This document shows positions 4,802 to 43,200 of a stretch of 64,000 nucleotides of DNA, piece after piece. The stretch is from positions 1-64,000 of the IMG/VR virus record IMGVR_UViG_3300037245_001361; one strand, 5' to 3'. Position 1 is the first letter of the stretch. Each line of letters opens with the position of its first letter. Below the pieces are notes generated by a model that did not search any database, was not told where the DNA came from, and worked only from the letters and a program-made list of their open reading frames with translations. Position numbers and translations under genes: made by a program. This stretch comes from a virus.

Positions 4802-6088
4802 ATGAAGTATTTACAGATTAAGAATCAAGGAATGATTGAAGCACAAGCATTAACACTAATGGGTGCATCAAGTAAAGTTGGAGACAGCTCAAAAATAGGA
4901 ATGTTCGGTAGTGGAAACAAGTATGCAATTGCATTCTTTATTAGAAACAATATCGGATTAAAAGTATTTACAGGAAAGAAAGAAATTAAAATTACTACTG
5001 AAATTCAAGAGTTTAGAGAGCAATCTTTCTCAGTTATTTTAATTGATGGTCAAAAGACATCTATTACTACGACAATGGGTAAGGATTGGATTTTATGGCA
5101 AGCAATTAGAGAGATCTATTGTAATGCTTTAGATGAAGGTAGTGATGACATTAAGATAGTTGATGACATTTCTCCAATGGAAAATGAAACTCACTTCTAT
5201 ATTGAAATGACTACAGAAATAGAGCATTTCATGGGTAATTTTGATAACTATTTCACTAAAGACAAAACTATTGTTCAAGAAAATGAAGTAGGTCAAATAT
5301 TTACATGCTCTGATGCTCTTGTTAATGTATTTAGAAAAGGAATTAGATGTTGGGATAGTCATAAAACATCTGTTTATGATTACAATTTCAATGAAATGGA
5401 TATAAATGAATCAAGGGTTGTTAGATACCAGTGGGAAATTTATGAAAGTTTCTTTCAGTTACTTATTAGAAGTACTGATAATGAGGTAATGGACAGAATC
5501 TTTGGAGCAATGAGAGATAGATTGAATTTTGAATGTTTAGCTGGAATGTGTATTTCTTTACCAATAGATAAATCTTCTACTAAATTCAAAAACTATGTAT
5601 ACACTAACAAATTTGCTCCTTTAGAAATGGGTGGTTCATTAACTGAAAAAGAAGTTGAAGAGTTTACTATTGTTCCGCTAAGTGTTTATGAAGCTATAGA
5701 ACCCTTAATGAATGAGGATAATAAAGCTGAAGCATTTCGTAAATCAACGGGTGGAGAGTTCTTCTTTGAAATAGAAAATCTTTCTCAATTACAGCAAGTA
5801 ACTATGGATAGAGCTATGGAGTTCTTTAAAGAATGTAAGTATGACATCAATTATGAGATTGTACCTGTTCAATTCGTTAAGAAGCATATTTTAGGAATGG
5901 CTGAAAACAATAAGATTTATGTTTCTGACATAGCTATTGAAAAAGGTGTGCACGATCTATGCAACACTATTATTGAAGAGCAAATTCATTTGAAGTATGA
6001 AACTGAGGACCATTCAAGGTTATTTCAGACTTCTGCTATTAATGAGATGTTAACAGTAATGAAGCAAGCATACGCTTTTCCAATGTAA
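4802..6088 (+). CDS. GHKL-type ATPase-like phage protein, 428 aa
   Basis: Two GHKL (Bergerat) signatures are visible. KIGMFGSGNKYA at about residues 31-42 resembles the glycine-rich G2/lid motif of Hsp90, and REIYCNALDEG at 103-113 resembles the N-box (E104, N108, D111) that binds Mg-ATP. The order is the reverse of Hsp90, MutL or gyrase B, where the N-box comes first, so the fold may be circularly permuted. The C-terminal half lacks a recognisable domain but contains a charged EEQIHLKYETEDH stretch near residues 398-410. I recall similar proteins in phages and mobile elements of Bacteroidota; the role is unknown. It stands just upstream of the PRTRC cassette. Confidence 0.65.
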   Translation: MKYLQIKNQGMIEAQALTLMGASSKVGDSSKIGMFGSGNKYAIAFFIRNNIGLKVFTGKKEIKITTEIQEFREQSFSVILIDGQKTSITTTMGKDWILWQAIREIYCNALDEGSDDIKIVDDISPMENETHFYIEMTTEIEHFMGNFDNYFTKDKTIVQENEVGQIFTCSDALVNVFRKGIRCWDSHKTSVYDYNFNEMDINESRVVRYQWEIYESFFQLLIRSTDNEVMDRIFGAMRDRLNFECLAGMCISLPIDKSSTKFKNYVYTNKFAPLEMGGSLTEKEVEEFTIVPLSVYEAIEPLMNEDNKAEAFRKSTGGEFFFEIENLSQLQQVTMDRAMEFFKECKYDINYEIVPVQFVKKHILGMAENNKIYVSDIAIEKGVHDLCNTIIEEQIHLKYETEDHSRLFQTSAINEMLTVMKQAYAFPM

Positions 6089-6120
6089 TAACATAGGAGT
6101 CCTTCGGGGCTCCTTAGTTA
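6089..6120 (+). promoter_or_regulatory. Stem-loop with TTCG loop upstream of PRTRC E
   Basis: TAACATAGGAGTCC pairs with GGGCTCCTTAGTTA around TTCG, about 12 of 14 positions paired. It ends 20 nt before the ATG at 6141 and is followed by AACCAAACT. Confidence 0.7.
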
Positions 6121-6140: not shown

Positions 6141-6899
6141 ATGGAAGGATTTTCATTTAAATTATTAGAAGAGTATTTAGATAATACTAATTTAAACATT
6201 GTTATCGCTAAGAATGATGGTGTATTGAGTGTATCTGTATTACCTCAACCAAAATGTAAAGATGACGCATTAAAAACTCTTAAACCAATCCTATTAACAG
6301 GAACGGCAGCGGATATGGATGCGGAATTTCATCAAATAATACAGAAGCCATTAAGCATGGTTGCTGGAATAGTATCAAATGTAGCATCATTTGAAGAAAG
6401 TACTGAAAAGGCTGCTGCAGAAACTAAAGAAGCAACAGCCAAAAAAGATAAAGAGAAAAAGGATAAGGAAAAAGCTGAAAAGAAAGTAGAAAAAGCTAAA
6501 GAATATTTGGAAAAGAAAGATTTCGATAAGGCTATGTTCTCAACTAATGAGGCTCTTAAATTATCCCCAAATTTGTCTTCTGCTTTGAAAATAAAGACTG
6601 AAATTGAAGCTGCTCAGGCAGCAAATAATCAAGTTGATATGTTTGGAGGTGTTGAAGAACCAAAAGCTGAACCTACATCTATGAAAGAGGTAGGTGTTGA
6701 TGAGCAGCAAGAAGAAGAAAACACTACTGGTATCCACAATCCTATTGACGAGAAAGCTTATGAAGATATGGCTACATCGGCAGTAATGAATGCTTCTGAA
6801 AATGCAGTTCAAGAACCTGATGAGGATGAAGAAGAAGCTCGAAGAATGTATGAAGCTGAAAACAGTGGAATGAATAATAATCAAATAAATTTTATGTAA
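6141..6899 (+). CDS. PRTRC system protein E
   Basis: The first 75 residues match what I know of the PRTRC E family: a start of the form GFSFKLLEEYL, the VSVLPQPK strand, and PILLTGTAADMDAEFHQII. A long Lys/Glu-rich helix follows (residues 95-150; TPR-like DKAMFSTNEALKLSPN), then a low-complexity acidic tail. PRTRC (ParB-related, ThiF-related cassette) genes are usually plasmid-borne and the biochemical role of E is unknown. Its stop overlaps the start of PRTRC C (TAATG), indicating translational coupling. The C-terminal extension is longer than in the minimal family form as I recall it. Confidence 0.85.
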   Translation: MEGFSFKLLEEYLDNTNLNIVIAKNDGVLSVSVLPQPKCKDDALKTLKPILLTGTAADMDAEFHQIIQKPLSMVAGIVSNVASFEESTEKAAAETKEATAKKDKEKKDKEKAEKKVEKAKEYLEKKDFDKAMFSTNEALKLSPNLSSALKIKTEIEAAQAANNQVDMFGGVEEPKAEPTSMKEVGVDEQQEEENTTGIHNPIDEKAYEDMATSAVMNASENAVQEPDEDEEEARRMYEAENSGMNNNQINFM

Positions 6900-7108
6900 T
6901 GGCAGTAGATGTAGTAGAATTAAAGAGAGTATTTAAACATGGGAAACTTGAATTAGAAGACCCTGGAACAAATATGTCAAAGGAAAAAGTATTAGATTTT
7001 TATTCTAATCAGTATCCGGAACTTACAAATTCAAGTGTAACTGGTCCTAAAATAGAAAATGATAACCAAGTGTTTGAATTTTCCACATCAGTTGGAACTA
7101 AAGGATGA
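6899..7108 (+). CDS. PRTRC system protein C, ubiquitin-like (Prok_Ub)
   Basis: This 69-residue protein fits the PRTRC C family along its whole length: LKRVFKHGKLELEDPG, the YPELTNSSVTGP block, and a C-terminus ending VGTKG. The family is described as a prokaryotic ubiquitin-like fold (Pfam Prok_Ub). The exposed terminal Gly is the residue expected to be adenylated by an E1-like enzyme, here the ThiF protein at 10207. It overlaps PRTRC E upstream and the next gene downstream (ATGA), so it sits in the middle of a coupled operon. What it is attached to, if anything, is unknown. Confidence 0.9.
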   Translation: MAVDVVELKRVFKHGKLELEDPGTNMSKEKVLDFYSNQYPELTNSSVTGPKIENDNQVFEFSTSVGTKG

Positions 7109-7383
7109 GCAAGCATACAAAAGGAGAATGGTGTCCTGTAAATTATGCCGGCCAAATTAATATTCAATTAGGAGAGTATTATTGCGATTCTAATTTATTA
7201 GACATGGAAATGTTTGATGAAGAAGAGGTGATAGCTAATGGAAAATTAATGGCTGCTGCACCTATTTTGTTAAAAGAATTACAAAAAATACAGCTTGACA
7301 TTAAATTGGGTACAATTCCTATAAAAAAAGATTCTCCAATTGCACAAGGTATTGAAAATGCTATTGCGAAAGCAACAAAATAA
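7105..7383 (+). CDS. Phage small protein with N-x-K-L-x-AAAP-LL motif, 92 aa
   Basis: It starts SKHTKGEW and contains NGKLMAAAPILLKELQ at residues 46-61. This combination (TKGEW near the N-terminus, AAAP-x-LL later) is common in small proteins of many phages and mobile elements; their function is not established. It overlaps PRTRC C by 4 nt (ATGA), so it is translated with the cassette although it is not a standard PRTRC component. Confidence 0.7.
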   Translation: MSKHTKGEWCPVNYAGQINIQLGEYYCDSNLLDMEMFDEEEVIANGKLMAAAPILLKELQKIQLDIKLGTIPIKKDSPIAQGIENAIAKATK

Positions 7384-7385
7384 AC

Positions 7386-7409
7386 TCAGGGAGCTTAAAT
7401 GCTCCTTGA
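7386..7409 (+). promoter_or_regulatory. Intergenic stem-loop of the early-arm family
   Basis: TCAGGGAGC pairs with GCTCCTTGA (one G-T) around TTAAAT. It ends 17 nt before the ATG at 7427; the leader contains AACCTAAACT. Confidence 0.65.
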
Positions 7410-7426
7410 ATTTTAAAACCTAAACT

Positions 7427-7606
7427 ATGAACTCGTATAAATTAAATGGACAGGCAGGGCATCATTTTAGAACTGCTATTTGTAAATTCTTAGGAATACA
7501 TCATACTGAAATCTATAAAACAGTAAAAGATATAGACAGAAATGGTGTAATAGAATTAAAAGATGGAAGAAAGTTTAAAATTGTATTAGAAGAATTAAAA
7601 AACTAA
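7427..7606 (+). CDS. Unknown small protein, 59 aa
   Basis: The frame starts with ATG after the AACCTAAACT leader and ends with TAA. It is basic and looks alpha/beta (ELKDGRKFKIVLEEL at the C-terminus). It opens the second part of the PRTRC operon. Not recognised. Confidence 0.6.
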   Translation: MNSYKLNGQAGHHFRTAICKFLGIHHTEIYKTVKDIDRNGVIELKDGRKFKIVLEELKN

Positions 7607-7610
7607 ACTT

Positions 7611-7775
7611 ATGTATGTATCAATATTAAATTTCCGAGAAGGAGAAGTAGAAATTATAGAAGTGGATGATGTTACTATTACAGACGAACATGATATTCAA
7701 AAAAGGTTAGGTCATTCTGATTTTCATTATATGACTACCGAAACACTTAAATTGAAAGTAAATAATGAATGCTAA
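7611..7775 (+). CDS. Unknown small acidic protein, 54 aa
   Basis: Starts 4 nt after the previous stop and overlaps the following start by a few bases, so it is part of the same coupled run. It has an acidic beta-like N-terminal half (EVEIIEVDDVTITDE) and no known motif. Confidence 0.55.
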   Translation: MYVSILNFREGEVEIIEVDDVTITDEHDIQKRLGHSDFHYMTTETLKLKVNNEC

Positions 7776-7965
7776 CCAGTATTACGATTTGCTATGCAAA
7801 AAGAAAGCAACAGAAATAAAAGAGAAAAAGACACCATCAGTAAGTCTGCATGGCAAAATAGGGCATATAATAGCAATGGAAACAATGTCGGAGATACACT
7901 TGGGAGTTCAAGACGTAAAAGAACGAGTGTTGCCATCGGCAATATTTTTGGAGCCAATTGTGTAA
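7765..7965 (+). CDS. Candidate overlapping small protein, 66 aa
   Basis: An open frame of 66 codons begins at an ATG that overlaps the previous stop, as in other coupled genes here, and has ordinary protein-like composition (VKERVLPSAIFLEPIV at its end). It overlaps the first 57 codons of the PRTRC F frame in another frame. Either both are translated, or one start is wrong. I keep it as a low-confidence gene because its start position fits the operon better than that of F. Confidence 0.35.
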   Translation: MNANQYYDLLCKKKATEIKEKKTPSVSLHGKIGHIIAMETMSEIHLGVQDVKERVLPSAIFLEPIV

Positions 7966-8933
7966 TAAAAAATAAATCCTCTTTAGAGGTAGATCTGATT
8001 CTTAATCAAGGAATATTTTCAAAAAGTACTCCCGAAACTGTTATTAAAGATATTTTCCCAGAAGTAAAAGAAAATCTCAACCTTGAAGGCTTAGAATTTA
8101 GTGAAATAACAAGACCTATAGATTTTCTTGATGCAATATTAAAGGCTTACAAGCCATCAATTAAGCACGAGGAATGGGATTTGCATTATGATAAAGCATC
8201 AAGTAAGCATATAATATCTTGTATTCACGATATTGATAAAATACCAGTAAAAGGCTATTGCCCTCAGTTAGATTTCTTACCTATTTTAAGTAAGAATAAT
8301 CGTAATCTCTACGACTTGTTCATTGGCTTGTTTGGTTTGTTCAATAACACATTATATTCAACATTCTATTTTGATGACGATGAACTTGAATATGCTATTG
8401 AGTATGTTGAATCGGGAATTGAAGATGAGGATGAAGAAGATGTTAAAGCTTTATGCCAAGACTATGTAACAATGTATAAGTCAGGAAATGTAAAGGTAGT
8501 AGAGGATGAAATTAAATCCTCTAAAATTAAACTACCAATGCTTAAGAAAAGACTGAAATCATTTGTGCCAAACAATGATATTGAAAGTATTTGTGTGAAT
8601 TTCATTAAAGAATCGATAAAGCTATTTAGGTATAAAGACAATTTCTGCAATTACATACATTTTGTTGGAAAAGAATTAGAAGAAGGAACACCTATTAATC
8701 CAAATGTTTATGCTTCTTTAGAGTGGAATTTTTCTGAAGACAATCCAATAGCTCGGCATCAACAAATGCTAACTAATTCTAATTGGGGAGAATATGGAGA
8801 TGTACCTTTTAGGTATACAACTATAAATGGTAAAGAAAAGAAACCATCAAAATTCATCTTTGATTATGTGAAAATGTTAGAAACATTATGTGATATTTCT
8901 ATGTCAGTAAAAGATTCGGAGAGCTCTTGGTAG
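7794..8933 (+). CDS. Probable PRTRC system protein F, 379 aa
   Basis: Position between C and B, and size, match the PRTRC F gene of Bacteroidota cassettes. The body (residues 60-379) is a soluble, acidic alpha/beta protein with an aromatic-rich block (FIGLFGLFNNTLYSTFYFDDDELEYA) but no catalytic motif I know. The first 60 residues are Ser/Asn/Arg-rich and overlap another open frame, so the true start is uncertain; no other ATG is available nearby. The last codons lie inside a family stem-loop. Confidence 0.55.
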   Translation: MQKESNRNKREKDTISKSAWQNRAYNSNGNNVGDTLGSSRRKRTSVAIGNIFGANCVIKNKSSLEVDLILNQGIFSKSTPETVIKDIFPEVKENLNLEGLEFSEITRPIDFLDAILKAYKPSIKHEEWDLHYDKASSKHIISCIHDIDKIPVKGYCPQLDFLPILSKNNRNLYDLFIGLFGLFNNTLYSTFYFDDDELEYAIEYVESGIEDEDEEDVKALCQDYVTMYKSGNVKVVEDEIKSSKIKLPMLKKRLKSFVPNNDIESICVNFIKESIKLFRYKDNFCNYIHFVGKELEEGTPINPNVYASLEWNFSEDNPIARHQQMLTNSNWGEYGDVPFRYTTINGKEKKPSKFIFDYVKMLETLCDISMSVKDSESSW

Positions 8934-8943
8934 CTCTTTGAAT
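8914..8943 (+). promoter_or_regulatory. Stem-loop overlapping the end of PRTRC F, upstream of PRTRC B
   Basis: ATTCGGAGAGCT pairs with AGCTCTTTGAAT (12 pairs, two G-T) around CTTGGT. The 5' arm is coding and the TAG stop of F spans the loop/3' arm border. It ends 15 nt before the ATG at 8959; leader AACCAAACTAAA. Confidence 0.7.
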
Positions 8944-8958
8944 TTAAAACCAAACTAA

Positions 8959-9654
8959 ATGAATAATATTATACAACAAGACTTTAAGCCATTACAGGCA
9001 ATAATAGTCTATCAACAAAATTTATCAGGACATAATGGAGATAATTATTATTTAGAAACAAGGAGGATCCACAAGAATAAAATGATGGAAGGAACTCCAA
9101 TGACTAAATCAGCATTATCCAAAATAGTAGAAGAAATTAATACTAAAGAAATTGAACGTATTCATTGTGATGGCATACTGCCAAGTAACTTATTATATTG
9201 GGGAAAGAAAAACCTAAACGTTGAGTTAGTATGGTATGTTAAAAGTAGCTGGAAGTCGTTAAGTTTTTCAAAACATTTAGGAATTAAGGATGGAAAGATA
9301 ATTGCTCCTACCTTAGTATTCAAATTGTCAGGAAATACTTTATCTGTATTTGCAGTTAAAACAAAAACTCCTAAAGAAAATACCATACTTTATAAGGCCC
9401 CATTTCACAATGTAAATGAAGTAGGTCAAATATGTATGGGAACAGCTAAAGTTGTAAAGTCAAGTGAAATAAAAACAATTATGAAAAGCTATGAAGATGG
9501 CTTTTTTCAATCAAAATTTACCGAAATTCATGGAGGGGGAACACCAATAAAGGCAAACCTCAACATAATACTTAATGAATGTGTAAAGATGGGTGCAGCA
9601 GTACCTCATTCATTATTTAGAAGACAAGGTAAACTTGTAAAAGATTTAGTATGA
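8959..9654 (+). CDS. PRTRC system protein B, E2-like (Prok-E2 family D)
   Basis: Matches the PRTRC B family: an N-terminal beta-rich region (LQAIIVYQ), the block ILPSNLLYWG, and the signature FHNVNEVGQICMGT at about 149-162. The family is described as a prokaryotic relative of ubiquitin-conjugating (E2) enzymes; Cys159 in GQICMG is the natural candidate for the thioester-forming cysteine. It would receive the Ubl (PRTRC C) from the ThiF/E1-like protein encoded 550 bp downstream. It overlaps the next gene by ATGA, as do the three following genes. Confidence 0.85.
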   Translation: MNNIIQQDFKPLQAIIVYQQNLSGHNGDNYYLETRRIHKNKMMEGTPMTKSALSKIVEEINTKEIERIHCDGILPSNLLYWGKKNLNVELVWYVKSSWKSLSFSKHLGIKDGKIIAPTLVFKLSGNTLSVFAVKTKTPKENTILYKAPFHNVNEVGQICMGTAKVVKSSEIKTIMKSYEDGFFQSKFTEIHGGGTPIKANLNIILNECVKMGAAVPHSLFRRQGKLVKDLV

Positions 9655-10007
9655 TAGATGGATTTGAACAATATACAGAAGATGTAAAAGCAGAAGACTT
9701 ACCAACTATTAAGATGTTAGCAAAAGGATTAAACGCAAGAATAGGCGTTGATAATGCTATCACTAATAAAGATATTCGAGAAAGCTTTTTAGAAAAGAAA
9801 AATTTAAAGATTGGAGATCCTAAGCTTAGAAAATTCATTCAATTTATTAGAGCAAAAAGATATGTTAATAACCTATGTGCATCAAGCAAAGGTTACTATC
9901 GTGCTGAAACTAAAGAAGAATGGTTAGAGTATAGAGAGGGTTACCGAGGAAGAGTAAAGTCAATGCAATTTACATTGGCATGTATGGATAAAGAACAATT
10001 TGTATGA
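9651..10007 (+). CDS. Winged-helix-like phage protein, 118 aa
   Basis: The central part has the pattern of a small phage winged-helix domain: an ITNKDIRE helix, KLRKFIQFIRAKRYV as recognition-like helix, then a wing ending SKGYYRAETKEEW and a C-terminal helix. I recognise this layout from phage DNA-binding proteins but cannot name the family with certainty. It sits between PRTRC B and ThiF with ATGA overlaps on both sides, so it may regulate or target the cassette. Confidence 0.55.
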   Translation: MIDGFEQYTEDVKAEDLPTIKMLAKGLNARIGVDNAITNKDIRESFLEKKNLKIGDPKLRKFIQFIRAKRYVNNLCASSKGYYRAETKEEWLEYREGYRGRVKSMQFTLACMDKEQFV

Positions 10008-10210
10008 AAAAAGCAGAAAATAAAGACGTATTAAAAGGAATGGATTGGCATAAACACCTTATCAATTCTCAATTTAGCAGTAAAAAACAAGAGGAAATGT
10101 ATAATTGCACTCATAATTATGTTGCAATTTATCTTCTTGAAGGATATTACTTTGCTTTTGGAATAAGTAGAGGTTATAAAAATTTAGCATCACTTAAAAG
10201 ATTAGTATGA
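10004..10210 (+). CDS. Unknown small protein within PRTRC operon, 68 aa
   Basis: Encoded with 4-nt ATGA overlaps on both sides, so it is strictly coupled to its neighbours. It is basic and aromatic-rich (YVAIYLLEGYYFAFGISRGYK), without clear motifs. I do not recognise it in standard PRTRC cassettes. Confidence 0.55.
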   Translation: MKKAENKDVLKGMDWHKHLINSQFSSKKQEEMYNCTHNYVAIYLLEGYYFAFGISRGYKNLASLKRLV

Positions 10211-10959
10211 TTCATTTTGCACCAGAATACATAATGAACCCTACCCACCCAATTACTGTAACGGTAGTTGGTGTGGGAGGAAATGGAACCGAAGTGTTAA
10301 ACGCTTTGGCAAAAATGCACGTAAGTTTAATTGAATTAGGTCATCCGGGTTTACACGTTCAAGCAGTTGATGATGATATTGTAGAACAACCAAACATCGG
10401 TAGACAGAAATTCTCTCCTGCAGATTTAGGAAGATATAAAGCTGAGGTTATTATTACCCGAATAAACAGATTTTACGGTTTGAATTGGATGGCAATACCT
10501 GAGAAATTCAGTGATGAATGGAAAGGAACTAACCTTATTATATCTTGTGTTGACAATGTTAAAACTCGATTGGAAATTCAAAAAGAGTTCAACAAAGACA
10601 GAAGAAGTAAAACAGATTATACAGCTCAATGGTATTGGTTAGACTTTGGAAATGGTAAAGACTATGGACAATTTGTTTTAGGTTCCCATATTGTTTTACA
10701 ACCAGAATCAAAACACGAAACCACAGGTAACTTACCAAGTGTTATCGAAATGTTTCCAAATATGGTAGATAATGAGGAGCTTAGTGGACCAAGTTGTTCA
10801 ACAAGAGAAGCATTATTAAAACAAGACTTATTTATTAACGCAGTTCTTGTAGCTAATGGTATGAATCTCTTATGGAGATTATTGACTAAATTTAATATCG
10901 ACTATCATGGTGGATATGTAAATACAAGTACTGGAGTTACAAGACCAATAAAATTATAA
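10207..10959 (+). CDS. PRTRC system ThiF family protein, E1-like
   Basis: An E1/ThiF adenylyltransferase-like protein of 250 residues. The Rossmann nucleotide-binding loop VVGVGGNGTEVL is near the N-terminus (about 19-30), followed by DDDIVEQPNIGRQKF (acidic and Asn/Arg residues that bind ATP in E1 enzymes), ISCVDN, and GPSCSTREALLKQ with Cys197 as the likely catalytic or metal-region cysteine. PRTRC ThiF proteins are expected to adenylate the C-terminal Gly of PRTRC C. The usual JAB peptidase (A), ParM-like D and ParB partners of PRTRC are not seen in the window. Confidence 0.9.
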   Translation: MIHFAPEYIMNPTHPITVTVVGVGGNGTEVLNALAKMHVSLIELGHPGLHVQAVDDDIVEQPNIGRQKFSPADLGRYKAEVIITRINRFYGLNWMAIPEKFSDEWKGTNLIISCVDNVKTRLEIQKEFNKDRRSKTDYTAQWYWLDFGNGKDYGQFVLGSHIVLQPESKHETTGNLPSVIEMFPNMVDNEELSGPSCSTREALLKQDLFINAVLVANGMNLLWRLLTKFNIDYHGGYVNTSTGVTRPIKL

Positions 10960-11442: not shown

Positions 11443-11589
11443 ATGGCTTGAAATATTAGTTGTCCAAATTGCCACGAAGGATTTGGAAAAGATAAAGAAA
11501 ACCCAATAGAAATGTCTTGTGATAATTGTGGAGAAGAATTTCACAATGAATATGGTTATGGAACAGATGAACATGAAGAAGAAAACTAA
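11443..11589 (+). pseudogene. Zinc-ribbon frame interrupted by TGA at codon 3
   Basis: Reading from ATG at 11443 gives Met-Ala, then TGA (11449-11451), then an open frame of 45 codons with two CxxC pairs (SCPNC and SCDNC) and an acidic tail ending at 11589. The two CxxC knuckles are typical of a zinc ribbon. One base change (TGA to TGG) would restore a MAWNISCPNC start. It may be a broken gene, a sequencing error, read-through, or use of a non-standard start. TGA is clearly a stop in neighbouring ATGA-overlapping genes, so general recoding is unlikely. Confidence 0.5.
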
Positions 11590-12466
11590 AGAAAGAATAG
11601 ATCCGTATCAATTACTTACTGATAAAATTATCAGCAAATTAGAAGCAGGCGAAATCCCTTGGAAAAAGCCTTGGAAATCAGTTCAGTTTGGTTATCCTAA
11701 AAATATGGTTTCAAATAAAGTGTATAAAGGAGCTAATTTCTTTAACGCATTGTTTGAGGATAGAGAATCTCCGCATTGGCTTACATTTAAACAAGCTAAA
11801 GATATGGGAGGTTCAATTAAAAAAGGAGAATCTGGAATGCCTATTGTTTATTTTCAATTTTTAGAGAAAGTAGATGATAAAGGCAATGAATATGTAGTTC
11901 CTTTAGTTAAGAAATCAACAGTATTTAACATTGAACAATGTAAAGATATTGAAAACCCAACAGCAGCACAAAAAGAGGCTTGGAAACTTGAGAACTTAAC
12001 AGAATTTAACCCCATTGAGAGCTGCGAGAACCTACTATCTACATTTGTAGACAAAGTAGCACCTTTTGAAAATACATCTCATCCAAAGGCTTATTACAGA
12101 CCATCATCTGATACTATAAATATGCCAATGAAAGAGAGATTTATAACTCCAGAGGGATATTATGCTACTTTATTTCACGAAATAGGTCATTCAACAGGAA
12201 GCTCTAAGAGATTAGATAGAGATGGTATAACCGGAAACCATCAACATGGAAGTAAAGGTTATGCTAAAGAGGAATTAGTTGCAGAACTTACCTCAGCTTT
12301 CTTATGTTCTAAAGCAGGAATTGAAAATGATGTTGTAGATAATAATGCAGCATACATCAAAAGTTGGCTTGGAGCATTGAGAGATGATAAAATGTTAGTT
12401 TACGATGCAATGAAAGATGCATTTAAAGCTATCGAGTATTTAGGAATTATAGAAGCTGAAGCATGA
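11573..12466 (+). CDS. ArdC-like anti-restriction protein / zincin, 297 aa
   Basis: The N-terminal part (residues 8-110: DPYQLLTDKIISKLEAGEIP followed by WKKPW and KVYKGANFFNAL) matches the ArdC N-terminal ssDNA-binding domain. The C-terminal half has the zincin motif HEIGH at residues 202-206 plus a downstream acidic helix (KEELVAELTSAF) that supplies the third ligand. ArdC proteins on conjugative plasmids protect incoming DNA from restriction. I chose ATG 11573 because it begins MKKKTKERIDPYQLL; the longer frame from 11519 lies over the zinc-ribbon frame. The next gene overlaps by 4 nt. Confidence 0.85.
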   Translation: MKKKTKERIDPYQLLTDKIISKLEAGEIPWKKPWKSVQFGYPKNMVSNKVYKGANFFNALFEDRESPHWLTFKQAKDMGGSIKKGESGMPIVYFQFLEKVDDKGNEYVVPLVKKSTVFNIEQCKDIENPTAAQKEAWKLENLTEFNPIESCENLLSTFVDKVAPFENTSHPKAYYRPSSDTINMPMKERFITPEGYYATLFHEIGHSTGSSKRLDRDGITGNHQHGSKGYAKEELVAELTSAFLCSKAGIENDVVDNNAAYIKSWLGALRDDKMLVYDAMKDAFKAIEYLGIIEAEA

Positions 12467-13928: not shown

Positions 13929-13951
13929 TTTTGTTTTTAAAATTATATTAT

Positions 13952-15391
13952 ATGAAAAAAAATGACTTACAGCTTAACTTAATGTCAGAAAGTAGCTTTA
14001 TAGGACAGTCCAATATAGATATAGAGGAAATCGTTTTAGCTACTTTCGTAAATTACCCTGAATCATATTTTAAAGTTGCCGATCAATTAAGTGTAAGTGA
14101 GTTTTCTGTAACAGAAACCAAATATATTTATATGGCAATTAAAGAATTAGCAGAGGTTTCAAAAATAGATATAGCTACCGTTACAGATAAATTAATTCAA
14201 AAGAAATATACTGATATAATCTACAAGCAAAAGAAAGGTTTTGACCTTGTTGTTATGCTTAATGGAATATGCGAAAGGGTAGATAATGATTATCACTTAT
14301 TAGAACATTGTAAACTTTTAAATGGATATGCTAAGCGTAGAAAACTTACAGCTTTAGCAGATGACATTAAAAAGAAATGTAATGATATGGTTGACCCTAT
14401 GGAAGTTATTTCTGATGTAAGCACTACAGTTGTAGAGATACAAGAAATGGGAGATATTGAAGAGTTTGATTTAAATGCTGAAAATAAGAAAGTTCTAAAA
14501 GGATTAGACTCTAAGAAAGATGGAGAAACTGATGTTAGAACCCACATAGATGCTATGGATAAATTTCTATACTGCTTAGAACCTTCAGAATTAATTATTA
14601 TTGGAGCAGCACCATCAATGGGTAAAACTTCTCTTGCATTAGAAATATTCAAGAATCAAATTGTTAACGAAGTTCCTGCAGCTTTCTTTAGTTTAGAAAT
14701 GGGTGTAACTCAACTACTAAACAGAATGTATGCTGTAGAATCAGAAGTTCCTTTAAGCAATATGAGAACACGTAATCTTTCCCCATTAGAAAGGAAAAAG
14801 ATAAACGTCACTATCGGAGAGTTTGAAAGAAAGAAGAAATTCTTTATTGATGATCGTGCCAGGAAGATTTCTCATATAGCTAATAAGATTCGTAAATATG
14901 TAATAAGACATAAAGTGAAAATAGCAATTATTGACTATCTTCAATTAATGACTTGTGATATGGGAAGACCGAGCAATCGAGAACAAGAAATATCTATCAT
15001 ATCAAGAACCTTAAAAGAATTAGCTACTGAACTTGGTATTCCAATCATTGCATTATCTCAAATTAATAGAGGTATTCATTCAAGAGCAGAGAAAAGACCT
15101 ACTCTTGGAGATTTAAGAGAATCAGGTTCTATCGAGCAAGATGCTGATATGGTAATATTTGTCCATAGACCTGCATATTTTGAACTCGCACAAGGAATAC
15201 CCTATGTAGAGGAAGCCGAGCTGATAATAGCAAAAGGTAGGTCTACAGGTGTAGGTACAGTTTATGTTAAGTTTAAATCAAGTATGACTAAATTTATTTC
15301 AAATGAGCAAGAATTACAAACACACTCGGATAGTCAAGGAAGTTTCCCAGAAAACGGGAATATCGCCCCAAGTGGTGAGTTTGATAGTTAA
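13952..15391 (+). CDS. dnaB: Replicative DNA helicase, DnaB family, 479 aa
   Basis: The N-terminal DnaB-type helical domain covers about residues 15-110. The RecA-like motor has Walker A GAAPSMGKT at 218-226, Walker B IAIIDYLQLM, and LSQINRGIHSR plus GDLRESGSIEQDAD further on, all standard DnaB signatures. It unwinds the phage DNA as a hexamer ahead of the replisome. I use ATG 13952 (MKKNDLQ), not the in-frame TTG 21 bases upstream. The C-terminal 30 residues are a Ser/Gly-rich tail whose coding bases overlap the start of the HU-like gene. Confidence 0.95.
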   Translation: MKKNDLQLNLMSESSFIGQSNIDIEEIVLATFVNYPESYFKVADQLSVSEFSVTETKYIYMAIKELAEVSKIDIATVTDKLIQKKYTDIIYKQKKGFDLVVMLNGICERVDNDYHLLEHCKLLNGYAKRRKLTALADDIKKKCNDMVDPMEVISDVSTTVVEIQEMGDIEEFDLNAENKKVLKGLDSKKDGETDVRTHIDAMDKFLYCLEPSELIIIGAAPSMGKTSLALEIFKNQIVNEVPAAFFSLEMGVTQLLNRMYAVESEVPLSNMRTRNLSPLERKKINVTIGEFERKKKFFIDDRARKISHIANKIRKYVIRHKVKIAIIDYLQLMTCDMGRPSNREQEISIISRTLKELATELGIPIIALSQINRGIHSRAEKRPTLGDLRESGSIEQDADMVIFVHRPAYFELAQGIPYVEEAELIIAKGRSTGVGTVYVKFKSSMTKFISNEQELQTHSDSQGSFPENGNIAPSGEFDS

Positions 15392-36900: not shown

Positions 36901-37236
36901 TCCCGCAGGTATCTCTCTCCATTTTCCATCTTTATCAAACAGTCCATCTTTATAAATCTTCACATCAGGAAACAGTTTTTGCATCTCATCAATCATTTGA
37001 GCAGCAACTTCTGGATTCTTTTCTAAAGTATCTAAAGTAGATTTTGATTTAAAGAAATCTCCAACCAATCCAAACCCACTTTCAATAACAGACTTTCCTC
37101 TTTTAGATTTATTTACACCATCGGGAGATGGAATATCATAACCATTTTCAATATACTTTTTTATAGCACCTTCTGTTCCATGCTCCTTTACAAGAGCTTT
37201 CCAATCAGGGTGCGAAATATTAGGACACTTTGCCAT
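33964..37236 (-). CDS. Virion zincin-like protein, 1090 aa
   Basis: A zinc metallopeptidase motif HEFAH is at residues 139-143 (context VPHEFAHEYIDMY), as in the large internal virion proteins of crAss-like phages. The middle is a long helical region; a C-terminal part (about 950-990) contains a possible hydrophobic helix (ALTTSIMLTTIDLL). The N-terminus MAKCPNISHPDWKALVKEHG may be a small separate domain. It overlaps the giant RNA polymerase gene by 17 bases, and both carry HExxH, so the two are probably packaged and injected together. Confidence 0.75.
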   Translation of the reverse strand: MAKCPNISHPDWKALVKEHGTEGAIKKYIENGYDIPSPDGVNKSKRGKSVIESGFGLVGDFFKSKSTLDTLEKNPEVAAQMIDEMQKLFPDVKIYKDGLFDKDGKWREIPAGKVGMHYKSAITSAIAYSNDSYLETVPHEFAHEYIDMYRNTPLVQQAIAKYGEEALVTFIGRKYAGNKMSSSFEKFLNDFWKMIRQTFGAPSMVDILTDSFAKNERLGVPLSRGNEAYNYQDSQPQYKKGGVSDHNKAISDGFSKIVFKDSVSKQKEIAQNLKEETLDVWWLRLKELSGALSEGKDNYAGIDFSFISFIDNFQAIEKESWAKVSEKLASDKPNSIELTKREQQAYDTLIKLGIAVEYKAMRDGSYIDESNGKISDESNINNQIDKELSETFQKRKDNLKSKNKYMREIMKTMGKAISYITNTRLWAKYLSGSESSAFSKVIYKGLNDSKRVRAAFSQGFNDIFVSNPNSYMAGSIFHNPKTDISELETVNFTLDSSNTESSVQLTKAELLNVYLMLRQEGAEKGLQKNGLQLKTIPGRDFDLDTKFKLTLKQLADIKSMIENDSEAMTLVKEIDMAMDYNYEKVNEKFRMMEGYDMEKIENYFPVFHGSENLEVAKKKNVIDDMRSLRLRMESDKAVRIEDTFQVLSGINFSNSSYVAYAIPIHNAQKAINSIKKKYNTKDDQQYIEALQGTIDKLQDSGTLFSTQGDQKASKLINKIQGNFAVALLAKNLGVVFKQQVSLITAGEVINSKYIRKSGGSLGPVSFINPWKLLKQLGTGDQTMMPIEWRQLTDNADYQELIKDPLFRERFEGVVSRETGEAVMGKMIAEDKIKIPFTNKYVTKSRLMQSITIMDTLTIVRLYNAVKLETQDRMGEADFKNMSEAQVTQHNIARLQEIVDKTQPTFDQTNRTRLSQSSNPIVRGLTMFSSATQKMNMLIVEGIIDYANNPTNENRMKLFKRITNTALTTSIMLTTIDLLRHTVLNGFDDDDEDQLIEKYAIGSLKTTLGSVQGVGSALNIIISQLDSNPWYQTAQDPFQHVVQEGSESVANFAKGNVGRGTKQAIAVTFKLTGLPLTLVNNTQKLIERVSE

Positions 37237-40200
37237 TTATACATTTTTTAATTTCGTCAATTTCTTCTTGCGTAGAAGTATTTACATCTGCAATATTGTA
37301 TGACGTAAAGTTAGCATTACTTTCAAAACCAGGTAACTTAGTAAAAATATTTCTTCCTTTATGTTTATAAACAACATCTTCATAGTTAACGTAATCTTCT
37401 GTTATGTTAAGCTCTAAATCTCCATTAGGAAACATCTTAGAAATGTTTTTCTGATAAGTAATCTTCTTAATCAAATCAGCATTAGCACCTGCTAAATTAT
37501 CTCTTAATTGGTCTTTATACTTTTGATTGAAAGAACTTTCTTCCTCACGCTTCATTTCCATTATATCTCCCGTAATCGGGTCTATAAGTTCATCAGCTTC
37601 TTGCATAAGATTCATTTCAGAAATAGACTTCTTAATTTTAGTAGCTTCTAATAATGCTTTAGTACGAATATCCATTGGCAAACCATCAATGAAACTTCCA
37701 ATCTTATTGTTAGTACCGTATCTGTATAATTGGTAATCAATAATTTCTTTTGCAAGCTGTGGATCTAACTTCTGAATCTCTTTAAATCCTTCTTGAAAGT
37801 TCTTCATTGTTTCATCAGTAGCTTTGAATTTAGGACTTAAGCTAACAATAACTTCTTCACTACCTTTAGTTAATTCTCTGAACTCTAAATTCTCAAAGAA
37901 AGCATTGTCATTAAATTTATCAACCGATTGAGATTGATGAATTTTAATTCTCGCTTCTTCAATATCAGATTTTAATAAGTCAACCGTAGTATTGTAACCT
38001 TTAGCATTAGAATCTAAAATAGCTTCTTGTTCTTCAACAGTAGAAACATTATCTATTTGATTAATAAGATTCATTGTAGATTGAGAAACAGCAGAGTCAG
38101 ACTTACCTAAAACAACAGCATCATAAATAGACTTCATTCTATTAGAGAAATCTCCAATAAACTTTTCTACATTATCTCTTTGTTTAGAAACTTGCTTCTG
38201 AGCAATAGACATCATCATTTGCTCTTTAAATCTTTTCTTAAACTCGAAAGCATTAGTTGATTTTTCAGCCAACTTTTCTACAACATTGTTTATTTCTGGA
38301 TTAGCAGTTAATAAGTTTTGTTCATAAATAGACTTTTGCTTTTCAGCAACAGAAACTCTATACTGATTTGATGCTCTTTTAACAAGGCTATCAGTTGAGA
38401 AAGGTAACTCTCCGAACTCTTTTATACCTTGAAGTAATTGAGCGTTTAAATCAGCGTTATTTGGAAGACCTTTATCCAATTGAATATAGCTAATAACTTT
38501 AGCTAATCCATCAGAAACTTCTTTGAACTCTCTATATTTCTCTATTTCCTCAGAATGTTGAACATCAGCAGGATAGTTCTTTTTAAAGAATTGATTGAAA
38601 GATATTTTCTTACCATCCTTTAGGAGTAAATTCTGATTATCAAAAGCTTCAACCATTTCAAGAATTGGCTCACTTGTTAAAAACTCAATGATTGGTTTAT
38701 CATCTACACCTAATAAAAGCATAGCATTACCTACATCAATAGTAGTTCCATTAATTCCAGTCATAGGAAGTATTGGGTCATTACCAATATCAAGAGCAGC
38801 TTGTAAGAATACAGCCAATTTATCTAAAGAATTGTTATTAAATTCTTGAAGTTCTATAGCTTTTCCTTGGTCATCTACACCAAATTTAATAGGAGTATTC
38901 AATTTTTCTTTAGCTTGACTTAAATAAGCCATCATCTTTCCTGCAATAGCAAAACGACCTGTAGCATCAGCACCCATTTTCATCTTGGTAGCTATATCAA
39001 CCATATCATTTACGGTAGATAAAGAATAAGAACCACTATCCTCTCCTAAAACATCAGTAAGAACTTTTCTTAAATCTTTAAAATCAAGAGTATTCTCTAA
39101 TGAATTTTGAACAAACTGAGGTTTACTAATATTCTTATAGAACTCATTAAACAATCTTGTCTTAGGGCTAAATTTATTAAACGTTCCATCCTCATTGATT
39201 TCTTTTCGATAAACCATTGCTTTATCTCCATCGTGATCCGAATCAGAAATGTGAACGAATTTATCTGAAAGAGTAACAACACTTGCATCAGTATCTAAAA
39301 AGTATTTAACTTCTCCAGCGAACATACTCATTTCAGCAGAAGCAGGAATACGAACAACAGCAACCTCTAATTTCTTTCCGTTACGTTGAGCTTCTGCCAA
39401 CATTTCTTTAGCATCACTTAACTTGTCAGCAAACATCTTATAAGAAACAGCAACCTCAAACCCATGCAATTTGTTTTCTCCATTTTGCATATCAGGTAAT
39501 TGGTGCATAAAGTTTCCTGCCATATCCAACTTAATACCTTTCTTAGTCAGTCTACTTGAAACAAACTGTTCGTAAATCATTCTTAAACTTGGGTCATCAA
39601 AACTTTCAATAAGATTACCTGCATTAGATGGGTTATTGTTCCAAGCTTCAACAGCTTTCAATAACTCAGAAGTAGAAGTTTTTTCTCTATCTTCTAAATC
39701 TTTAACAAATTCTCTAATCGTAGAGTTGTAACTTAATAACTTCTCCATTGTTCTACTATTCCTTAGATTACTTTTAAGGTAGTTTACAACAGCATCGTCA
39801 TAAGAATCTATATCAGACTGAGAAGCGTTGTTAAATTGAATGTTAGCAGCTTGTGTTGAGAATATAGCACTCTGTTCACTTGGATGCTTTAAAGTCTTAT
39901 TAAGATTAAAAAGAACTCTATAGTTATCAAGTTTAACACTTTCAAAATTAGGTAAAGTTTGAGCTTCCCCTTGCTTCATTAATTCTTCAAGATTATATAC
40001 ATTAGATGGTTGCTCACTACCTTTGGTAGCACTATCATCCATTATCATTACGTAAGGAACAACACCATCTTTGGTGTGCTGTTTCTCAATATTCTTGATA
40101 AGTTTTGCAACATTTGCATAACCCTCACCCATACCATCTAAGTTAGTACCATTCTCAGTATTCATTACGTTCAAGGTACTTCGTTTAAGATATAAAGATT

Positions 40201-43200
40201 TTCCAGTTGTAGGATCTACTTGATAAACTTGGTCTTTAGAATTTATTCCCATTGGGTCTAAACTTCCCGACATCTCTTGTAGTTTCTTAGATAACTCAGT
40301 TCCATTAAAAGCAAATGAATCTCCAACGAAGTTATCACCATCAGGTTTACCACCATCATAATAAACCATCATTACAGGTCTATCTAATTCGATAATCTCT
40401 CCATTACTACTTGGACCACTTAATCTTTTTACTGCTTGTTCAACAGCACGCTTACTTGAATTAGGGTTAGAAAAATGCAAAGCAGAACCACCATAAATAT
40501 CATTTAAGTAAGTTCTATTCAATGCTTCTGTATAGAAGTAATCATCTACCATTTCATCAATCGTAGAATACTTTTTGCCTTTTCCAACTTTAGTTTGAGA
40601 GAAAGCATCAGTTAGTCCATTGTCAGATAACAAGTCTTTAATTTCTTGAATATCTCCCTCGTACTTTTTCTTTAATTGATTACCAGGAGTAACAATTCCA
40701 TTAGCATCTGCTTGATGAATATAAAGATTATTGAAATCCTTTCTCATCTGTTCTTTTTGCTCAGTTGTTAAGCCTTTCATCTTTTGCTTTAACAACTTTT
40801 CTAAAGAAGCAGCTTGTTTTTTATACTCAGTATCTAATTGAGTAGCAGTATAAGTAGGAACATCAAACATAAGAACACTATCTCTATTTGACATTACACC
40901 TAAAGTCTGCTTATAATATTCAGAAGCAGTATTTGTAGCAAACTTGAATAGTTGATTAAGACTATAATCGTTTTTATTTTGCTGAGAATACTCTGCATTT
41001 TCTAAAGTGTTAAGGTTCTTCATAGAATCATGCTTAACATAATTCACTTTACCTTTTTTCTTAAAGTACTCTAATACAGAATTATTCTCGTAAACAATAC
41101 TCTTTTGCATCGTTTCAATTCTCTTACTTTCTTTCTCGTTCTCAAACATTGAGTTGAGTTCACTTATCCAATGACCCGTTTGAGTAGATGAAACAGTATT
41201 TCCTGAGCCATTTAAGAAAGTATTCTGAACTAAAGATTCATCAGTAGCTCCCTCATAAATTTTAGTAGCCCATCCACTTATACCATCTTTTTTTCCAGAT
41301 GTTCCACTCCATACAGTTTCTTCTTTAGCTTGGTTTTGACCATTAAAATAAGATGAAAAAGAATGATACTTACCAGCTAAAGATGTAAAGAAATCTTCAT
41401 CTGAAGTTTTAGTAGCTGTTCCAAATGAATCGATTATACCATTGATATTTGTAGCGTTAATATCTAAGCCATAAAGCTTGCTTAACACTTCCATTAATGG
41501 CTTTAAATCAGCCATATCTCTACGCTTAATCTTAGCCTGATAACCTTTATCAAACATTTCAGAAAAGAATACACCATCTTGCGTTCCTTTCCAAGAATCA
41601 AAATTCAATTTAACTTGACCAAGATTTTTATCCTTATTCTTTAAATGATTAGTTAATCTGTAAGTATAACTTCCATCTTCATTTTCTTGTCTATAAATAT
41701 TACTACCCTCATATTGTACTTGAATAAGAGAAGACAATGTTTTTACAACACCAGCCTTTTGACCTTTATCCAACTTACTAATGATTGTAATTAATCTTTT
41801 AGCAATAATGTTATCTGCATCAGCATCAGCTTTCATTTGAACTGCAAGACCTCTTTGTTTGTAAGTCTTTTGAGAAGCATTAGAAATATACTGATAAATT
41901 AAATCAGCATTCATCTTATACCCATTAGCATCTACAATCATCCCAAGTATTGCACGAACAGAAGAATTAATTTTCTTACTTGCTTTTACAGAATTGTTTT
42001 CAGAATCGGGAGTTCCATCTACATCTTGATTTTGGTCCTCATTAATTTCCTCTTCACTGATTTCAAGATTAGTATTCATCATAGAATTAACTACTCTGTC
42101 TACAACTTGATAAATATCATTCTGATTCTTCTTTAAATTGTCAGCGAAAGAAAGAATATTTTCATAAGTCAAATCAGTATTACCCATATCAATACCATCG
42201 AAAACTAAGTCATCACTTACTTTCAAATTTCCTTCTTTCTCAGCATTGTATCTTTTCATCAATACACCAACTGAAGCAATAATTAAATCCTCCTTATTCT
42301 TTCTATCGAAATAGAACTTCTTGTCTGTTATATTATCTATCTGTTGTTTCATCAATGATGAACTAACAAGATCTACTGTCTTTAAAAATCGAGGATTTAC
42401 ATCGGCTTTTCTCTGATTTTTATTCATACCAGAAAGAGCAGCTATCCCAACAGAATAGGGTTTGTTCTTTAGTATTAATCCATCAGTTAATATTCCAACT
42501 ATATCTCTCGATTTTGATTTTGAAAAGAAACGTTTAATTTTATTCCAAAATCGTTTAGCAAACTCTTTAAACTTCTCTAAAGCAGAACCTTCAAATTTAA
42601 CCTTAAGTTTAGATAAAGAGTCTTGTGCCAATGCTTCTGTTAATGCTTCGTTTAATTGCTCCTTTCTCGTTTTATCAGGATATAAAGCAATAGCATCTAA
42701 ATCAAATTGAGTTCCCTCAATCATCTCGTAACCTGCTTTAACTAAAGGATGATTATCCCCTAATATTTCCAAATAAACGTGAGCGTATTCGTGTATTAAT
42801 GAAGACTGTATAGCTTCATTTTTATTAATTTCAATTCCTCCGTCAACAATTCTTGCTAAAATCTTAGCACCATATTTACTTCCTAAATCACTAACTTCTT
42901 TTACAGAAAGATTAGGGAATATTTTACCAAAATGATTTTTAATTTTAGTGTAAAGCTCTGGGTTATCTCTAACTAAAGAGTTGTCATATAACTCATCATT
43001 AGGCTTTTTCTCAGACCTTTCTCTTTGCTCAACATTAAATCCATCCAAGAAAGAAATTAAGTCAGTTTTCTTCTTTGATTCCTGCTCTGTAGAATTCTTC
43101 TCAGCAACTTCCGCACGTTTTACTTGCTCTGCTATTAATTCTGATTTACGAGCTTCTGTAACTTCTGTTTCAGCTAATTCCTCTTGAATATCTTCATTGG

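Follow-up and report, generated by a model that had tools for sequence, protein, structure and literature searches.

The closest described relatives of the locus treated here are the PRTRC gene sets of Bacteroidota, such as those of the Parabacteroides distasonis plasmid NZ_OY725769 and of a Tunicatimonas pelagia plasmid, where the genes stand in the order E-C-(F)-B-ThiF, with no PRTRC_A gene, with no ParB annotated adjacent and with a protein C that ends in GTKG or GIKG. A resemblance in the way of working is found in Bil (BilABCD) and in Cap2/Cap3 of CBASS, where an E1 activates the C-terminus of a ubiquitin-like protein (Ubl) or of a target and an E2-type cysteine makes the transfer. Despite years of annotation no function of PRTRC was found in the searchable literature, a non-exhaustive search of which gave no paper joining PRTRC with phages or with Ubl conjugation in substance, and a large survey of crAss-like phages leaves PRTRC unmentioned. 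Here we analyse bases 1-64000 of the 71,213-base IMG/VR virus record IMGVR_UViG_3300037245_001361, a stretch that we call the window, which bears a PRTRC set in its early arm. We propose that this set is a working PRTRC Ubl conjugation cassette that has become fixed as a core early module, most likely for replication, in a crAss-like lineage of about 70 kb, a proposal towards which the evidence, taken as a whole, inclines us.

The cassette is of the Bacteroidota PRTRC type, E-C-orf66/F-B-ThiF without JAB and without ParB, and the assignment holds for this subtype only, since JAB and ParB are likewise absent beside the annotated Bacteroidota cassettes. Like the latter, it has no PRTRC_A (JAB) gene, which was found neither in the record (G000) nor in the other loci of the crAss-like lineage; no ParB match was seen among the window proteins scanned; and its ThiF is about 42% identical to that of the Bacteroidota sets. 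It differs from them in that it is a core module passed on vertically and placed upstream of DnaB, and in that small genes of the phage interrupt it both between C and F and in the B-ThiF interval. The cultured Burkholderia phage BgVeeders33 (OK665841) also has PRTRC E, C, F, B and ThiF, but differs in having PRTRC_A (JAB), a C with a 62-residue tail and Mu-like structural genes. It is noted that the set of BgVeeders33 (L005, 16177-20663 of OK665841.1) is a complete E-C-F-B-A-ThiF set that is not annotated as PRTRC. By contrast with Bil and CBASS, the cassette consists of different sequence families, has a separate small E1 and a separate small E2, is without JAB, is carried by a phage and is not known as defence; it does not fall into the Bil/CBASS type, with only weak E1 matches in PADLOC and no JAB.

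The initial annotation of this DNA, which was made from the sequence alone, had recognised E, C, B and ThiF and a probable F, and searches of the window proteins with Pfam, NCBIfam (TIGR) and PHROGs profiles bear this out (Table 1). The Pfam matches and those to TIGR03738 (C) and TIGR03741 (E) all lie above the model cut-offs, ThiF reaches 252.4 bits with TIGR03736 (cut-off 144.75), and B reaches 93 bits with Pfam Prok-E2_D (cut-off 25), while its match to TIGR03737 (3.6e-29, 101.7 bits) lies under the cut-off of that model, 131. The lack of any profile match for C, B and ThiF, which had been named as a refutation, thus did not come about. F gave zero matches to the library models of Pfam and NCBIfam; it was reached by an iterated profile started from plasmid F seeds (1.3e-30, with no match in the first pass), and its position is kept in more than 100 loci, so that its identity is supported by iterated profiles together with synteny. 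Against PHROGs none of the five cassette proteins (E, C, F, B, ThiF) matched well; the strongest match was that of ThiF, at 3e-4. The coordinates and the diagnostic residues were also read correctly, with C ending in ...SVGTKG with a free glycine, the GVGGNG loop of ThiF at residues 22-27 and its Cys197 in PSCS, and Cys159 of B in GQICMG. Protein E has a conserved N-terminal part, a TPR-like stretch near residues 118-144 and an acidic C-terminal tail; its stop codon overlaps the start ATG of C, and short reading frames lie between C and F.

The carrier is a phage. Its TerL, lying just beyond the window (L007), and its major capsid protein find their best GenBank matches in crAss-like phages at only about 24% identity, from which it follows that the lineage is a divergent crAss-like one, and the longest records of the lineage (G000, G016, G073 and G075) have lengths of 69-71 kb, below the usual crAss-like genome size. 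Independent contigs give the order GHKL-like/E/C/F/B/ThiF/(ArdC)/DnaB/HU/ATPase/SSB-like, the same synteny is present in clades I and II, and some 30 contigs share the synteny of the cassette. Since the general TerL model phrog_2 misses the crAss TerL, the phage's own TerL was used as the query, and the lineage TerL (62-100%) occurs together with the cassette in six records (G000, G006, G016, G027, G073 and G075). A chimera with a plasmid contig, the other refutation named beforehand, is ruled out by the syntenic contigs and by these six records; the cassette is genuinely phage-borne, and its described place between the GHKL-like gene and the replication genes of a crAss-like early arm recurs in the independent contigs. 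The GHKL-like protein upstream of E (4802-6088) matches phrog_8203 at 4.5e-86 and is kept in relatives at 35-66%. Note also that a late protein of 2794 amino acids (37220-45604) contains DSDHDGD, fitting the DxDxD of the crAss RNA polymerase (a motif match only), and is probably the crAss-type RNA polymerase.

As the contigs found with TerL are mostly short and uninformative on prevalence, contigs found with an independent bait, the DnaB of this phage, were used instead. Among the new contigs that share the replication module and whose sequence upstream of DnaB exceeds about 3 kb, ThiF is present in 11 of 11, the carriers including distant relatives with 34-38% ThiF identity; no informative DnaB contig was seen without the cassette, contigs with a shorter upstream part (e.g. 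L223-L226) being ones that cannot be judged. On the ThiF tree the sequences of clades I and II group together with a Shimodaira-Hasegawa-like approximate likelihood ratio test (SH-aLRT) support of 94, and those of all clades of the lineage lie on one side of a branch with a support of 75, which fits one acquisition. Relative to L012, the ratio of nonsynonymous to synonymous substitution rates is 0.14-0.23 (NG86) for E, C, B and ThiF. Thus, in this lineage the cassette is under purifying selection and inherited beside the replication genes, and it is core because every informative DnaB contig has it.

We now consider whether the proteins have the features expected of an E1, an E2 and a Ubl. ThiF has the GVGGNG loop, D55/D57, R66, K78 and D116; over 174 sequences GxGGxG, D55, R66, K78, D116 and C197 are invariant or nearly so, with C197 present in 174 of 174. 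The family profile matches the adenylation domains of Uba1, UBA6, UBA3, UBA5, the SUMO E1 and Cap2. Cys197 is presumed from its motif to be the catalytic cysteine, its setting P-S-C-S being one that we take to be like the P-x-C-T of E1 enzymes. For B, AlphaFold modelling gave a mean predicted local distance difference test score (pLDDT) of 91.7 and an E2-like predicted fold. When candidates from Foldseek were aligned to the model with VIA-align, the 48 best rows were all E2 enzymes or E2 complexes, UBC9 giving Z 5.2, a root-mean-square deviation of 4.4 and 118 aligned residues, with unrelated rows at 3.5 or less. The protein is hence predicted to have the E2 (UBC) fold. N151 and C159 (nucleotides 9433-9435) are invariant in 70 aligned B sequences, and the motif N-x6-[IV]C-x-G is found also in the distant crAss clades. 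By sequence, neither C nor B has a credible relative in the PDB.

The C-terminus of protein C gives comparative evidence of another kind. In this phage C is made without a C-terminal tail and ends in KG. PRTRC_A, where present, bears a JAB/JAMM-type motif, HSHG...S..DD..D. In a first locus set, 10 of 10 C proteins accompanied by PRTRC_A have a tail of 48-97 residues past the GTKG position, and 136 of 136 without PRTRC_A end exactly at the glycine (or alanine); 12 further loci of the crAss lineage have an untailed C, and a wider plasmid sample added from Xanthomonas an eleventh long-tailed C, again with JAB (11 of 11). A two-way rule, JAB if and only if C is tailed, was dropped in view of proteobacterial JAB plasmids where C is untailed or has a 3-residue tail; the one-way rule survives, that a long C tail occurs only with JAB. 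Such a rule is to be expected if the terminal glycine must be exposed, as in a working Ubl, and it counts as comparative evidence for C being a true Ubl. The KG ending predicts, moreover, a single-glycine trypsin remnant, which standard diglycine searches overlook.

Based on these features the following pathway is proposed. ThiF would adenylate the C-terminal glycine of C and load C on Cys197, as its motif and invariance suggest; C would then move to Cys159 of B, as the predicted E2 fold and the invariant N151 and C159 suggest, and from there to lysines of the target. E and F may be helpers, perhaps selecting the target. As C is made tailless, it would need no maturation. A JAB peptidase that could take the tag off was not found in the phage, so the tag would stay unprocessed and, unless a host enzyme acts, long-lived. 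We think it very probable that the cassette has conjugation activity. The tag would most likely act on a component of the replisome during phage replication, for which the beta sliding clamp is the strongest candidate: the phage's own clamp where a clamp gene is adjacent to the cassette, and the host's in the present phage, because no clamp, PolA or PolB was found here. Thus, of the suggestion in the initial annotation of an E1-E2-Ubl-like set that could modify host or phage proteins, the phage-borne gene set stands as observed, and the conjugation and the target are what we infer.

The role in replication is suggested by the distribution of the cassette and of its neighbours. A search of IMG/VR with ThiF gave at least 159 contig stretches, of which the best 80 were kept, and the general TerL was seen in 19 of 50 tested IMG/VR records with a PRTRC ThiF. 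This ThiF is also present in many Bacteroidota genomes and in 369 PLSDB plasmids, and PRTRC sets are frequent in Bacteroidota chromosomes and occur on many Bacteroidota phage contigs, so that the earlier statement that they are known mainly from plasmids does not hold, the cultured BgVeeders33 being one more case. In B. thetaiotaomicron the PRTRC genes BT2645-2649 are located among those of a conjugative transposon (PMC10434189). In 7 of 9 non-crAss phage contigs tested, the gene directly upstream of E encodes the DNA polymerase III beta sliding clamp. Among the 85 non-redundant loci whose flanks were long enough, the clamp gene abuts or lies inside the cassette in 22 and lies elsewhere in the flank in 4, which amounts to 22 abutting or inside among the 26 loci with a nearby clamp, and in two loci it stands between C and F (L043, 6317-7420; L099, 4317-5420). 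The PRTRC-linked clamps are polyphyletic, and the clamp-linkage label switches 10 times along the ThiF tree, where well-supported branches force at least 3 of the switches. Further contigs have replication genes (DnaB or Lin1244-type) downstream of ThiF, and ssb, topA or a clamp gene is near the cassette in single plasmids. A lysine particular to the PRTRC-linked clamps was sought, and none was found. In this phage and in the other records of its lineage no match to a clamp, PolA or PolB was seen, agreeing with a few crAss-like phages from outside the human gut that are without a polymerase (PMC7886860). In one relative of the crAss lineage (L238, 2-868) a clamp-like reading frame lies about 4 kb upstream of E and matches an in-house profile at 3e-70; PF02767 misses it. 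Another side observation is that the Tunicatimonas plasmid bears near its PRTRC set a second ubiquitin-like set of a multiubiquitin domain, ThiF and DUF6527 (L008, 15059-17112).

A replication module is the most economical reading of these data, with the clamp or a clamp-bound protein as the leading candidate target. That the cassette acts in replication is, we consider, slightly more probable than not, and that the clamp itself is the target of conjugation can be put forward only tentatively. If the clamp were the target, the eukaryotic ubiquitylation and SUMOylation of PCNA would be a functional analogue, a resemblance that rests on genomic linkage; the wider idea that PRTRC is the prokaryotic counterpart of these modifications, in which the Ubl put by mobile elements and phages on the beta sliding clamp (their own or, for these crAss-like phages, that of the host) hands the fork to the element, is likewise doubtful at present. 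The clamp gene has been drawn into the PRTRC operon more than once, even between C and F, and its adjacency in many other phages is a hint that viruses of bacteria may have an equivalent of the clamp tagging of human cells. With its standing as core among the early genes of one crAss-like lineage, its wide occurrence in phages of Bacteroidota and its recurrent joining to a clamp gene, PRTRC passes from an orphan annotation of plasmids to a model, open to test, of how proteins may be tagged when phages replicate.

Several points weigh against the proposal. No biochemistry of PRTRC proteins was found in the searchable literature. The PDB alignments of ThiF stop near residue 134, before C197, and thus the assignment of C197 as the E1 cysteine rests on the motif and its invariance. 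Foldseek alone gave no significant E2 match with the B model, and the Z of about 5 from VIA-align lies under the safe level of that tool. Four JAB plasmid cassettes have a C with 0 or only 3 extra residues, and the association of tail and JAB is partly one phylogenetic contrast. As to replication, 63 of the 85 non-redundant loci, this phage included, are without an adjacent clamp, the early arms of phages are in any case where replication genes gather, and the ArdC gene next door also fits an anti-defence neighbourhood.

This last point leads to the main rival, counter-defence or host takeover, in which a host defence or regulatory protein would be tagged early and the linkage to replication genes would come only from shared earliness. 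It is the main rival because ArdC is close downstream and the genes are early: the cassette belongs to an early arm with shared leaders, in most of clade I the second gene downstream is that of the ArdC antirestriction protein, and conjugative plasmids carry the cassette as well. However, anti-defence genes are usually patchy, whereas the cassette is missing from none of the informative contigs of a lineage that is divergent, and the repeated clamp linkage, including the insertion of the clamp gene between C and F, would be left unexplained. Action against defence, as first suggested, is thus possible and in our view unlikely, the linkage to DnaB and to the sliding clamp pointing to replication instead.

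It could also be imagined that the cassette serves superinfection exclusion or acts against competitors, other phages or plasmids having their proteins tagged much as Bil tags tail proteins. The works-like resemblance to the E1/E2 antiphage systems and the weak matches of ThiF to the E1-E2 models of PADLOC are in line with this, but E, C, F and B have no PADLOC match, JAB is missing, unlike in Bil and CBASS, and the cassette is core and has its place next to replication genes, not in an accessory region, which makes the explanation improbable. Slightly less probable still is plasmid-like maintenance, also suggested at first, by which the cassette, in line with a plasmid origin and a link to ParB, would help the phage genome to be partitioned or stably kept outside the chromosome. 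The name PRTRC does derive from an association with ParB, which adjoins the cassette in pPRO1 and in many of the loci fetched from proteobacterial plasmids; but the Bacteroidota cassettes examined have no annotated ParB next to them, the scan of the window proteins recognised none, no partition module is seen, the structural arms are those of an ordinary phage, and the set belongs to the core and not to the accessory genes, all of which weakens the suggestion. Sulfur-carrier or cofactor chemistry, with ThiF and C as a ThiS/MoaD-like sulfur-transfer pair rather than a tagging pair, would fit the ThiF superfamily and the adenylation motifs common to ThiF and MoeB, but is very unlikely given that an E2-like partner with an invariant cysteine is nearly always present, that MoeB-type CxxC motifs occur in only 4 of 174 ThiF sequences and that C ends in KG, not GG.

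Table 1. Positions in the window of the cassette genes, of neighbouring genes and of leader hairpins.
Feature	Position	Strand	Details
PRTRC system protein E	6141..6899	+	252 amino acids; Pfam PRTRC_E PF19556 8.8e-27, TIGR03741 4.3e-12
PRTRC protein C, ubiquitin-like	6899..7108	+	69 amino acids; Pfam Prok_Ub 3.1e-24, TIGR03738 8.8e-21
Small phage protein, non-PRTRC	7105..7383	+	phrog_1273
Hidden small gene orf66	7765..7965	+	66 amino acids, out of frame over the F start
PRTRC F-like protein	7794..8933	+	reading frame of 379 amino acids; iterated profile and position
PRTRC protein B, E2-like (predicted) conjugating enzyme	8959..9654	+	Pfam Prok-E2_D 2.3e-26
Small phage protein, non-PRTRC, between B and ThiF in this clade	9651..10007	+	phrog_2113
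Small open reading frame, non-PRTRC, between B and ThiF	10004..10210	+	
PRTRC ThiF, E1-like activating enzyme (putative)	10207..10959	+	TIGR03736 3.6e-75
ArdC-type antirestriction protein, neighbour outside the cassette	11519..12466	+	Pfam ArdcN, MPTase-PolyVal; phrog_7245
DnaB replicative helicase, which marks the syntenic replication module	13931..15391	+	Pfam DnaB_C 6.6e-79
Leader hairpin before E	6096..6116	+	
Leader hairpin	7390..7408	+	
Leader hairpin before B	8918..8940	+	

Over the start of F lies a further reading frame, which we call orf66. Its family extends over about 100 loci, from these phages to the Bacteroides cassettes, with a constant frame relative to F, and in all cases compared both frames are open. 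The identity in the orf66 frame exceeds that in the F frame, with 44.5 vs 29.5% in clade I and 48.6 vs 32.8% in Bacteroides-type loci. There is no Pfam match to orf66, a conserved small gene for which there is apparently no existing annotation. The part of F that overlaps orf66 is predicted to be disordered; the folded part, starting from about residue 57 (nucleotide 7962), is mostly helical and confidently predicted, and the predicted fold has no PDB relative at a significant level. Because the relative frame is constant, a -1 frameshift joining orf66 to F was considered; it is unsupported, with no conserved slippery site found by eye, and the fusion is also disfavoured by plasmid F having its own LPIAADY start near the stop of orf66.

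Finally, we note the leaders of the early arm. Six similar leader hairpins of the GGAG...GCTCC type, each with a AAACCAAACT-like sequence after it, occur on the + arm, at 1002, 4771, 6109, 7401, 8933 and 11222. The leaders have no Rfam match. The pattern is found 0 times in shuffled sequence and 0 times in the late arm, in agreement with the initial description of the cassette as lying under the same stem-loop leaders as the rest of the early arm, and the hairpins lie just before early-arm start codons.

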